This document shows positions 18,257-20,074 of a stretch of 20,074 bases of DNA, piece after piece. Under the pieces are notes generated by a model. It worked only from the letters and a program-made list of their open reading frames with translations, was not told the DNA's origin and did no database searches. Both the position numbers and the translations under genes were made by a program. Each line of letters opens with the position of its first letter. The stretch's first letter is position 1. The DNA is from a virus: IMG/VR virus record IMGVR_UViG_3300030419_000575, positions 1-20,074 of that record, one strand, 5' to 3'.

Positions 18257-19405
18257 TTAGAAGGCAGCGTCGCCTGTAGCAGCTCCAGCGAACAGTTCTA
18301 CGCAAGCAGCAGGATTGAGCCAATCCGCTCCCATTGCAAGACGTCCGAGGATTACATCACCTTGATAGATGACAGAAACGTCACCGCTAGTGATTTGTAC
18401 TTGAGGTCCGATAGCTTCTACACAACCTGCAGCTTCACGTTGGAAGATCAGGCCGCAAGACTTATCGAACTCATCAGCTGCACCGTACTCATTATTGATA
18501 CCGGTTGCAGCAGCGTCAGCAGCTTCAAGTTCAGTGTCACTACCAACAAATGAACCTGTGTTACCTGGTGAAGCAACGTCAGGATCAGTTGTACCTCCAG
18601 TAGTACCGTACTTAGTACCGTAGTTACCAAAGAATGGAATGTTCATTGACTTGTAAATCTTGATACCAGCAATCTCTACGATGCCGTTACCAGATTGTAA
18701 TGCTGAACCCTGCTCATCACGGTTAATAAGTCCGTTATTACCCACCTCTTGTATCAAAGCATAGTACTGCCTTGGGTTAAGTACACCTACACGTCCTTCG
18801 GTACTGACACCCTTTTCGTCAAGGGCTGCCGCTGCATCGAAGAAAGCTTTTGTTAGAGATTGAGCGTTATAAGCATCGGAAAGCTGAGCGTTAGTACCAA
18901 CACGGATTTGTGTTCCGCCTGGTTCTACGAAGTTAGCCTTAGTGATAAGACTTGCCTTACGAGCACCGTTAGCAATTGCACGGAAGATAAGACGGTCATA
19001 TTTCTGAGCCAATGCATAACCAATCTTACGTGAGATTTCAGATCTCAAATCATAATGAGCTAGAACTTCGTCTAATTCATATACGAACGCTGAACTGATT
19101 AAGAGGTCATCAACCGTAATTGTCTTCTCGTTTACTGGAGGTGCACCGTCAGAGTTACCTAAGATGCTCTGTCCAGGGACATGATATTCAGCAGATGTAC
19201 GACCTGTATAGATGAACTGTAATGACTTACCGTTCTTCAAGGTACGCTTCATAATAAGATCGCGAGCGATAGTATTATTCTGGAATCCTTTGAACATCTC
19301 TCCACTGAACAGCTTCAAATATAGAGCCCTTGCATCGCCGGTCGAGTTCGCCTGACCCGGCCGCGTAAGATCAGCAAGAGGCTCGTTACTATTCTGATGA
19401 GCCAT
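18257..19405 (-). CDS. 10: Major capsid protein, T7 gp10A-like
   Basis: This 382-residue protein (T7 gp10A has 345) is the HK97-fold shell protein. Recognisable features are the N-terminal FSGEMFKGFQNNTIARDLI, then GKSLQFIYTGRTSAEYHVPG, the conserved FVYELDEVLAHYDLRSEIS segment, and LNPRQYYALIQ. A Gly/Ser/Asp-rich stretch at about residues 262-312 could be a surface loop. Its base composition and codon choice are less AT-rich than in the fibre and core genes, as expected for strong expression. The ATG at 19405 has no visible Shine-Dalgarno but an AT-rich leader. Hairpins lie on both sides (19529-19563 and 18217-18241). The scaffold and portal genes are presumably to the right of the window. 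Confidence 0.95.
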   Translation of the reverse strand: MAHQNSNEPLADLTRPGQANSTGDARALYLKLFSGEMFKGFQNNTIARDLIMKRTLKNGKSLQFIYTGRTSAEYHVPGQSILGNSDGAPPVNEKTITVDDLLISSAFVYELDEVLAHYDLRSEISRKIGYALAQKYDRLIFRAIANGARKASLITKANFVEPGGTQIRVGTNAQLSDAYNAQSLTKAFFDAAAALDEKGVSTEGRVGVLNPRQYYALIQEVGNNGLINRDEQGSALQSGNGIVEIAGIKIYKSMNIPFFGNYGTKYGTTGGTTDPDVASPGNTGSFVGSDTELEAADAAATGINNEYGAADEFDKSCGLIFQREAAGCVEAIGPQVQITSGDVSVIYQGDVILGRLAMGADWLNPAACVELFAGAATGDAAF

Positions 19406-19528
19406 TTATATGGGATAAAATGTATTGTTTACTTTCTTTATACGTATAAAATTTTTCGATCGTTTTTGTGGTCTTTCCCACCGTCTAGACAGCTTGAGGG
19501 TATCCACCGTAGCGGGCCAAAAGCCAAT
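19406..19528 (-). promoter_or_regulatory. Capsid gene leader, palindrome-rich, possible promoter
   Basis: This is the non-coding stretch before the capsid ATG after the upstream hairpin. It holds a 14-base perfect palindrome TTTATACGTATAAA (19437-19450), CGATCG (19457-19462) and GTCTAGAC (19483-19490). It also holds a 7-base direct repeat CCACCGT (19479-19485 and 19504-19510). No T7-type promoter consensus and no Shine-Dalgarno is visible. A late phage promoter is expected here by analogy with T7 phi10, but none can be named from sequence alone. Confidence 0.4.
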
Positions 19529-19563
19529 GAAAGGGAGGTCCGACTCTGAGGTGCCTCCCTTCC
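19529..19563 (-). terminator. Strong hairpin before capsid gene (terminator or processing site)
   Basis: The arms AAGGGAGG and CCTCCCTT pair perfectly. One G-U and one G-C pair extend them to about ten base pairs around a 15-base loop. The hairpin begins directly after the stop codon of the 45-residue gene. The following sequence has only a short T-run (TTTCATT), so it may be a weak terminator or an RNase processing or stability element. Confidence 0.6.
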
Positions 19564-19565
19564 TT

Positions 19566-19703
19566 TTACTCTCCTAAGAGAGCTTCCTCTAATGATTGAG
19601 GCATGTCATCTTCTTTCTCTTCTGGTTCTGGATCTTTAATATCTGGAGTCATAGGAGAAATATAAGTTACTTTAGCAGGATTACCTGCGCTTTGATGTGC
19701 CAT
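19566..19703 (-). CDS. Small acidic hypothetical protein (45 aa)
   Basis: This short frame encodes 45 residues, MAHQSAGNPAKVTYISPM at the start and a strongly acidic C-terminal half (DPEPEEKEDDMPQSLEEALL). Its ATG overlaps the stop of the upstream gene as TAATG, a junction used at three other places in this window, which is the main support for it being real. A hairpin follows directly after its stop. Its first four residues (MAHQ) match those of the capsid protein downstream. It lies where T7 has the end of its scaffold gene, so a capsid-assembly accessory role is possible but unproven. I recognise no family. Confidence 0.65.
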   Translation of the reverse strand: MAHQSAGNPAKVTYISPMTPDIKDPEPEEKEDDMPQSLEEALLGE

Positions 19704-20068
19704 TAGAAATTTAGTTTTGCGCCGACTTTGGTTGACCAAGCTTTGTCATCATCTTCGTCCTCAGCAGTTAGTACTGCGAGTTCTCCATAGACACCAAGAG
19801 CATCTGTTGCATTGACGTTGATACCAACTTTACCTGATAGGCGAGTGTCGTTATCTTCTCCATCTTCTGCAACAATAGCTGGCCCTCCCTGAGCATACCA
19901 TCCAATAGTCTCACCACCACCTTCTACACCAACGTGTAGGTCAGTGGTACGGCTGTCATAATCCGAGCCGGTATAACTGGCGTTGCTCTCTACGTTTACG
20001 TAGGCACCGGCGAAAGCAGGAGCTGTCGCTGATAGAGTGGCTGCGAGGGCTAGTGCTAATCTTTTCAT
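19703..20068 (-). CDS. Secreted outer-membrane beta-barrel-like protein
   Basis: This 121-residue protein starts with a clear signal peptide: MKR, a hydrophobic core LALALAATLSA, and an AFA cleavage site after residue 20. The mature part shows about six alternating-pattern segments (GAYVNVESNASYTG, TDLHVGVEGG, IGWYAQGGPAIV, RLSGKVGINVNA, LGVYGELAVL, WSTKVGAKLNF). Two acidic loops (EDGEDND, EDEDDD) separate some of them. It ends in phenylalanine, as outer-membrane barrel proteins usually do. It is shorter than a standard eight-stranded barrel. A cell-envelope role, such as blocking superinfection or altering the host surface, is a guess. Only six bases upstream of the ATG are in the window. 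Its stop overlaps the next start as TAATG. Confidence 0.82.
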   Translation of the reverse strand: MKRLALALAATLSATAPAFAGAYVNVESNASYTGSDYDSRTTDLHVGVEGGGETIGWYAQGGPAIVAEDGEDNDTRLSGKVGINVNATDALGVYGELAVLTAEDEDDDKAWSTKVGAKLNF

Positions 20069-20074
20069 TGTTAA

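Follow-up and report, generated by a model that had tools for sequence, protein, structure and literature searches.

A small cyanophage protein co-varies with the N-terminus of its own phage's capsid protein, and a conserved RNA fold precedes the capsid gene

A genuine gene for a 45-residue protein lies upstream of the capsid gene in T7-like cyanophages, a group that abounds in sunlit ocean waters. Within a phage, the first residues of this protein and of the capsid protein co-vary at the protein level. The small gene is separated from the capsid gene by a strongly conserved non-coding stretch; the RNA fold formed there shows covariation, and almost every locus tested has it in front of the capsid gene. 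We propose tentatively, with somewhat less than an even chance of the whole being right, that the small protein mimics the N-terminal arm of the capsid protein and docks at the arm sites, and that the RNA, termed here the capsid-leader RNA, is processed and protects the capsid mRNA.

The small frame is a gene of T7-like cyanophages

The window analyzed here is an entire virus record of 20,074 bases. The small acidic gene lies on its minus strand at 19566–19703 and contains 45 codons and a stop codon (19568–19566). Read from 19703 down to 19566, it encodes MAHQSAGNPAKVTYISPMTPDIKDPEPEEKEDDMPQSLEEALLGE; translation of 19566–19703 on the plus strand yields no open frame. The upstream gene on the same strand (19703–20068) matches Pfam PF24653 Phage_OMP (E 1.3e-42), a cyanophage outer-membrane-like barrel, and its stop codon and the small gene's start codon share one base in a TAATG junction (19701–19705, minus strand), present at 19705–19701 as the first-pass annotation had described. 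Downstream, also on the minus strand, the gene for the Gp10A-like major capsid protein (PF21703) occupies 18257–19405; the nearest solved relative of this capsid is that of P-SSP7 (2xd8). Its N-terminal arm, about the first 20 codons, is the part that the small protein resembles. The hairpin following the stop of the small gene had been regarded as a gene boundary. It is present, at 19563–19529 by fold, and it is more than a boundary, being the first helix of the conserved structured RNA before the capsid gene.

A tblastn search with the small protein among 50,697 phage records returned six records, which represent four phages, two of them twice; each match had E = 6 and covered at least 80% of the query. 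In NATL2A-133, an isolated Prochlorococcus podovirus, the relative is CYPG_00031, annotated as 'predicted protein'. In NATL2A-133 and P-SSP6 the relative has the barrel gene on one side and the capsid gene on the other, with an extra small gene in between on either side; across the three phages inspected (P-SSP6, NATL2A-133 and P-SCSP-R27W) its place is between these two genes, or upstream of the capsid, and one small gene intervenes. The description of the protein as unannotated therefore holds for P-SSP6, whose relative carries no annotation, but fails for NATL2A-133 and apparently for 9515-10a, where two annotated features lie beneath the match. A further conserved small gene, MRTQLINALKAHANGE..., is found between the acidic gene and the RNA in P-SSP6 (L002 3710–3913) and NATL2A-133 (L003 3713–3916). 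The window protein also matches PHROG 23119, a 44-position family of unknown function, weakly (E 0.026; residues 1–45 on profile positions 1–43 of 44). Five of eight relatives tested match the same family, at 1.7e-29, 3.6e-9, 2e-7, 2.1e-4 and 0.0064, the best of them being the NATL2A-133 relative.

The check for purifying selection that had been proposed gave dN/dS values of 0.19, 0.21 and 0.25 on three sets of pairs. The first set consists of 20 disjoint pairs of acidic ORFs (n = 75; pS 0.399, pN 0.102, dN/dS 0.19) and the second of 10 pairs of Cys-rich ORFs (n = 25; dN/dS 0.21). Because the pairs of both sets were chosen by ORF likeness, the estimate was repeated with pairs chosen by capsid closeness, for which 36 pairs were formed and the 28 with the same kind of tail were used (pS 0.358, pN 0.111, dN/dS 0.25). 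Frame and start are kept in relatives, and the one-base overlap recurs in 36 of 77 loci, these being the loci with a barrel gene within 2.5 kb among the 134 that carry a module ORF (see below). The relatives, the dN/dS values and the recurring overlap bear out the view of a real, bounded and often translationally coupled gene.

The tip of the small protein changes in step with the capsid N-terminus

Codons 1–13 of the small gene (19665–19703, minus strand) encode a capsid-like N-terminal module, MAHQSAGNPAKVT. The similarity first noticed in the window, MAHQSAGNP against MAHQNSNEP at the start of the capsid (19405–18257), was confirmed and proves to be general and co-varying. A survey of capsid pairs covered 517 elements in 517 loci (among the matches listed), 460 of them distinct; 368 of the distinct ones remained once 16 lacking a capsid start on their contig and 76 with fewer than 220 bases upstream had been set aside. 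Locus counts throughout are counts among the matches listed and not abundances, and contigs fetched several times were merged only if the compared stretch was identical. A module ORF was defined by a length of 30–75 codons, a start of the form M-x(1,2)-[HQ]Q and an end within about 125 bases upstream of the RNA core. Such an ORF was found in 134 of the 368 loci (among the matches listed). Both proteins have the plain form in 124 of the 134 (10 were dropped), which gave 86 distinct ten-residue pairs. By comparison, among ATG frames of 30–70 codons 2.5% (259/10,235) begin M-x(1,2)-[HQ]Q, in a background pool that includes the module ORFs themselves.

Residue 3, either H or Q, agrees between ORF and capsid in 79 of the 86 pairs, against 43.0 ± 4.7 when pairs were shuffled, and none of 5000 shuffles reached 79. 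The ORF/capsid combinations are H/H in 41 pairs, Q/Q in 38, H/Q in five and Q/H in two, and the seven disagreements count against mimicry. A smaller earlier count agrees (40/45 matched, against 22.5 ± 3.4). Residues 5–8 show 1.09 identities per pair versus 0.72 ± 0.06 for shuffled pairs. The likeness, which is confined to about the first 8–13 residues, can be close: L089 and L019 have the ORF MAQQATHSPAF and the same-phage capsid MAQQATHSNAS, L121 has MSQQQSGG and MAQQQSGS, and L013 and L124 have MSHQNS and MAHQNS. Among 62 annotated proteins of NATL2A-133, only the capsid and the small protein start with M-x(1,2)-[HQ]Q; in S-RIP2, the capsid alone does so (52 proteins examined of 54 annotated).

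Module ORFs also keep company with a particular capsid type. They lie alongside MA[HQ]Q capsids in 127 of 242 loci and alongside other capsids in 7 of 126 (both among the matches listed). Three of the seven exceptions are frames beginning MVQQLVT.. beside MANATQ capsids and are taken to be spurious; in the other four the capsids begin MAVSQQ (twice), MTVNHQ and MAVAQQ and carry the HQ or QQ two residues later. The 115 MA[HQ]Q loci without a module ORF in the stretch searched count against mimicry, and in some of them the ORF may lie further upstream beyond another gene, as it does in NATL2A-133 and P-SSP6. P-SSP7 has neither a module ORF nor an MA[HQ]Q capsid.

Shared ancestry was addressed with a quickly searched tree of 113 capsids from which the arm had been omitted; on it, residue 3 has changed at least 19 times in the capsid and at least 22 times in the ORF. 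Nine independent, well-supported pairs on this tree have different capsid residues at position 3. The ORF differs in the same direction in, on average, 5.5 of them, in the opposite direction in 0.0 and not at all in 3.5, and the sign test is only just significant (median p 0.031). A first tree of 55 capsids gave the same trend without significance (median p 0.25), and one random pairing on it contained one change in the opposite direction.

Explanations of this likeness other than mimicry of the arm make different predictions about codons and positions. The small gene could be a historical remnant, produced by duplication or gene conversion of the capsid start and having no present role in capsid binding. 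The two genes are adjacent and on the same strand and the likeness is limited to about the first 8–13 residues, as such an origin would leave them. Recent copying of DNA, however, would have given a different codon pattern from the one found: where the residues of a pair are the same, the codon is identical at 165 of 323 sites, against 150.5 expected from usage, and of 56 serines common to ORF and capsid, 24 are encoded from different codon boxes in the two genes. Codon agreement barely above usage indicates that the likeness of the tips is kept at the protein level and argues against DNA copying as its source; an old duplication alone would not hold H and Q in step in 79 of 86 pairs, and we consider a remnant improbable. 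Selection for translation start on both N-termini (ATG GCA CAT CAA ...), acting on two highly made late proteins that share no binding site, would account for residues 2–4 lying directly after the ATG, and favorable codons near the start are common where translation starts efficiently. Yet H and Q differ only in the last base of CAY/CAR, and the ORF still follows its own phage's capsid; the likeness extends to residues 5–8, often through different codons; and only 2 of the 62 annotated NATL2A-133 proteins begin in this way. We give this explanation very little weight. Harder to separate from mimicry is a shared N-terminal signal read by a third partner, such as the scaffold, the portal, a protease or a host factor, instead of by the capsid groove, given that co-variation says only that both proteins meet the same constraint. 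Indirectly against it stands the known place of the arm in a relative: in P-SCSP1u, according to the parts of the structural report used here (PMC10575957), the long capsid N-arm fastens capsomers together and docks on the E-loops and P-domains of its neighbors, which are capsid–capsid contacts. A third partner is on balance unlikely. For a free peptide whose tip changes in step with that of the capsid, a docking site shared with the capsid arm is the best explanation, and it is this reading that we develop below.

Different tails follow the same module

The C-terminal tail of the window protein, SLEEALLGE and the stop codon (19566–19595, minus strand), represents one of several types. Among 124 distinct ORFs (among the matches listed), 53 have a SLEEAL-type tail, 22 another acidic tail, 25 a Cys-rich tail and 24 some other tail. 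In an alignment of 15 relatives, whose rows were picked for the SLEEAL-type tail, M1, Q4, S37, E39, E40 and L42 are invariant. AlphaFold2, given 13 rows, predicts an extended chain with no fold (mean pLDDT 68.5, pTM 0.16) and, with low confidence, a single short C-terminal helix at residues 38–42. The difference of tails behind one module suggests that the module could be an address tag carrying exchangeable payloads.

The Cys-rich tails are basic and have the look of a zinc ribbon (FKRCGHCGDKKPQCRKQKKCLKGLL); they stand behind the same N-terminal module in L005, L010, L026 and others, in many phages. The one Cys-rich relative tested has no match in Pfam or PHROG, and four relatives of the small protein have none in Pfam. 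A match of the window protein to the heavy-metal-binding Pfam family HMBD (E 0.012; 16.0 bits against a cut-off of 23.6; 15 residues) was taken as chance. Small acidic proteins ending in PSY or GDPSY are also encoded upstream of the capsid gene in L053, L072, L081, L121, L095 and L160, and PSSP7_028 of P-SSP7 (L004 3229–3348) is another such protein, without the capsid-like tip.

Two roles had been put forward for the small protein. A capsid-assembly accessory would fit. A relic of a scaffold C-terminus is not supported: seven scaffold C-termini are unlike ...SLEEALLGE, and a separate scaffold gene is present in the isolates read. Counted against the mimic reading is that P-SCSP1u and P-SSP7 are reported, in the parts of PMC10575957 used here, to have no decoration proteins.

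A covarying RNA fold lies just upstream of the capsid gene

The core of the capsid-leader RNA spans 19467–19527 on the minus strand and is defined by covariation, by a covariance-model match (E 3.9e-17, the window being one of the 46 training rows) and by the fold of the window itself. It contains P2 (19525–19522 with 19494–19491), two inner pairs (19518–19517 with 19499–19498), P3 (19515–19512 with 19507–19504), which is closed by a UACG loop, and P5 (19481–19478 with 19471–19468), whose loop follows GA(N)AGA. In 46 aligned cores, 98.3% of the cells pair and eight of the 14 pairs are changed on both sides; the covariation score of these 46 sequences is 0.460, compared with 0.116 ± 0.013 after shuffling. 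Nearly all of the 46 have four P3 pairs. They replaced an alignment of 101 cores, and the other 55 were omitted from the pair count because P3 was out of register in that alignment. RNAalifold recovers the same core helices unaided, and the minimum-energy fold of the window RNA shows them as well.

The covariance model matches 84 of 87 window-group sources at E ≤ 1, once each and just upstream of the capsid gene; 83 of these matches are at 8e-5 or better and one, in L079, is weak (0.15). Three sources were missed (L018, L057 and L062), all of them contigs that start at most 70 bases before the capsid. Of the S-CBP4-like loci, 78 of 80 are matched, again once each and just upstream of the capsid gene, and the two missed (L361 and L364) start at most 57 bases before it. 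Among 93 further sources (13 isolates and 80 P60-like loci), 36 are matched at E ≤ 0.01, all upstream of the capsid. P60 itself is matched at E 0.0012 and SS120-1 reaches only 0.028; S-CBP2 has no match to the core model at the place upstream of its capsid gene. Isolates from eleven named genera are matched at E ≤ 0.01. Some of the sources contributed rows to the model, and the loci had been collected through their capsid likeness or the motif, so these searches bear on place and copy number more than on occurrence. Rfam has nothing near its gathering thresholds at the window (listed up to E 10, best 0.15), the matches to snoRNA, lncRNA, microRNA and other families being far below gathering and due to chance, and no Rfam match covers the core in the 12 loci searched.

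A candidate helix P4, the hairpin CCGTC..GACGG, was excluded; none of its pairs is changed on both sides, and its 5' strand overlaps P2. Palindromic hairpins recognized by eye also follow P2 in the P60-like loci L436, L437, L440 and L447 (GGTGCTAGCGCC, GGTACCGGTGCC, GCGAAGCTTCGC and GGTGGCCACC). Like CCGTC(TA/AT)GACGG in the window group, they overlap the 3' strand of P2, an overlap that could allow a switch of strands.

Exact copies of an 18-mer from the P5 region occur in 118 stretches of bacterial genomes. Seven are cyanophage-like contigs (L207, L227, L263, L265, L290, L306 and L310), and most of the others look scattered and were set aside. Two of three Acidimicrobiales loci tested lie in tmRNA (L211 and L225), where the P5 hairpin sequence probably occurs by chance. 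The cyanophage element together with a capsid-like start is found in metagenome-assembled genomes of Dehalococcoidia, Porticoccaceae and Neomarinimicrobiota (L207, L227 and L265), which look like cyanophage contigs binned with bacteria; L263 belongs to a Prochlorococcus genome.

A hairpin, a T-arm-like form or a tRNA precedes the core

P1 of the capsid-leader RNA (19529–19563, minus strand) is in the window a stem around the loop CACCTCAGAGTCGGA, with no tRNA match by ARAGORN, and elsewhere its place is taken by a tRNA or a T-arm-like domain. We sorted 232 distinct flanks by the form of P1. The hairpin with CACCTCAGAGTCGGA or a close variant of that loop is present in 135; 79 fall into a T-arm-like class (about 30% of flanks), which was assigned by a rule of this analysis, and 18 fit neither form. 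Inspection by eye divides the 18 into nine hairpin forms, seven T-arm forms and two with neither. In 150 distinct hairpin forms, gathered with the stem not required, positions 1–5 pair in 94–100%, as against 53–86% with shuffled partners. Of 425 copies of the loop, 24 lack the core motif within the next 110 bases. Of the 79 T-arm-like forms, 70 lie within 15 bases of the core and the rest look spurious. An acceptor-like stem of five or more pairs is present in 43 of the 70, against 15 with the upstream sequence shuffled. The majority of T-arm-like forms do not qualify as tRNAs, ARAGORN detecting one in 2 of 38 sources that were mostly picked for that form.

Four loci have a full tRNA whose end is flush with the core or leaves a gap of a single base. 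In L330 an annotated tRNA-Gly occupies 2430–2500 and the core starts at 2501; in L012 the tRNA runs to 1563 (Rfam) or 1564 (ARAGORN) and the core begins at 1565; in L036 a tRNA-Leu found by ARAGORN only runs to 3868, before a core from 3869; and in L008 a tRNA with a marginal Rfam score ends at 1521, with the core from 1522. The tRNA model also matches at P1 in L146, an overlapping copy of L008. Since these tRNAs abut the core, the core begins where the 3' processing of a tRNA would cut. In L036 the tRNA is immediately preceded by a match to abiF RNA (RF03085; 3755–3791).

Between the RNA and the capsid start, the window has a spacer-less 14-nt palindrome, TTTATACGTATAAA (19437–19450, minus strand). 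Perfect spacer-less palindromes of at least 10 nt occur in 303 of 398 distinct capsid-proximal spacers versus 42 of 398 when shuffled; the sequence varies while palindromy is kept. The palindrome could serve RNA dimerization or be a DNA site. Glutamine-II riboswitches (RF01704) lie upstream of the whole block in L004 (3355–3408), L008 (703–755), L012 (789–843), L330 (1194–1250), L328 (2303–2367), L446 (587–641), L460 (765–817), L207 (1586–1642) and L263 (4317–4368). They precede the barrel gene in L008 and L012 and gp222 in L330; a counterpart in the window would fall just past its edge at 20074.

The hairpin and core might instead act as DNA, as a promoter for a phage RNA polymerase or as an intrinsic terminator. 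Their position is intergenic, Syn5-like promoters exist in cyanophages, and the window RNA is of unremarkable stability, little more stable than its shuffles (z −1.48; z +0.76 on a stretch that cuts P1). Against this stand the core pairs changed on both sides (8/14; 0.460 against 0.116 ± 0.013) and the different tetraloops that, by eye, interchange on P3 (UACG, CAAG, UAAG, GAAA and GCAA). Each of two whole genomes has a single significant copy of the core, tRNAs replace P1 in some loci, and the sequence 3' of the window P1, TTTCATTGG, has no long T run. We regard a promoter or terminator as highly unlikely and prefer an element that works as RNA.

Discussion

In the reading we prefer, the small protein would be a detached, unfolded version of the N-arm of its own capsid, joined to an exchangeable tail. 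The mimic arm would dock in the groove for the capsid N-arm, formed by the E-loop and P-domain of neighboring capsid subunits, and docking would bring the tail to the shell. The docked arm may shield free capsid subunits before assembly, or it may fill empty arm sites at special vertices. On the RNA side, cleavage at the 3' end of P1 would leave a capsid mRNA that opens immediately with the P2/P3 fold. Lying two bases inside the newly made 5' end, P2 would protect the mRNA and so give a separate, stable capsid message. In its most far-reaching form the model would have a class of modular peptides wearing the capsid N-arm as an address tag, carrying tails to the growing shell and co-evolving with the capsid residue by residue, followed by an RNA whose first part, be it tRNA, tRNA mimic or hairpin, is removed so that the capsid mRNA keeps a folded and protected 5' end. 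That this complete picture is right we consider doubtful.

If true, imitation of the capsid arm would add a new route by which shell assembly is steered or a peptide reaches the shell, and the capsid N-arm could be put to use as an address tag. The leader RNA stands before the gene for the most needed late protein and could show how the capsid outproduces neighboring products greatly. The literature surveyed, mainly openly licensed and by title and the start of the abstract, contained no such leader RNA or capsid-arm mimic in cyanophages.

Several known systems resemble parts of this arrangement. PHROG 23119 aligns with the window protein over its full length; it differs in that the match reaches only E 0.026 and the one Cys-rich relative tested does not match, and the family has no function recorded. 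Capsid assembly chaperones and size-determining proteins, such as scaffolds and CpmB of SaPI (as far as described in the parts of PMC5644958 used here), act on capsid subunits during assembly, whereas the small protein bears the likeness of the capsid's own N-arm; the comparison made here is with scaffold C-termini. The cement or decoration, knob and horn proteins of podoviruses (Syn5, and the parts of PMC10575957 used here) are likewise accessory proteins of a T7-like capsid. These are proteins of the virion surface, whereas the small protein has 45 residues, is unfolded in the model and is not known from the virion. The Glutamine-II riboswitch (RF01704) occupies the same phage region as the leader RNA but is a separate element, located further upstream. 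Message ends set by hairpins or tRNAs are familiar from the RNase III sites of T7 and from the tRNA punctuation of organelle transcripts. The capsid-leader RNA is similar in that the message of a gene may be delimited by the hairpin or tRNA immediately in front of that gene, but differs in that a hairpin, a full tRNA and tRNA-like forms without a D-arm exchange with one another before a single conserved core.
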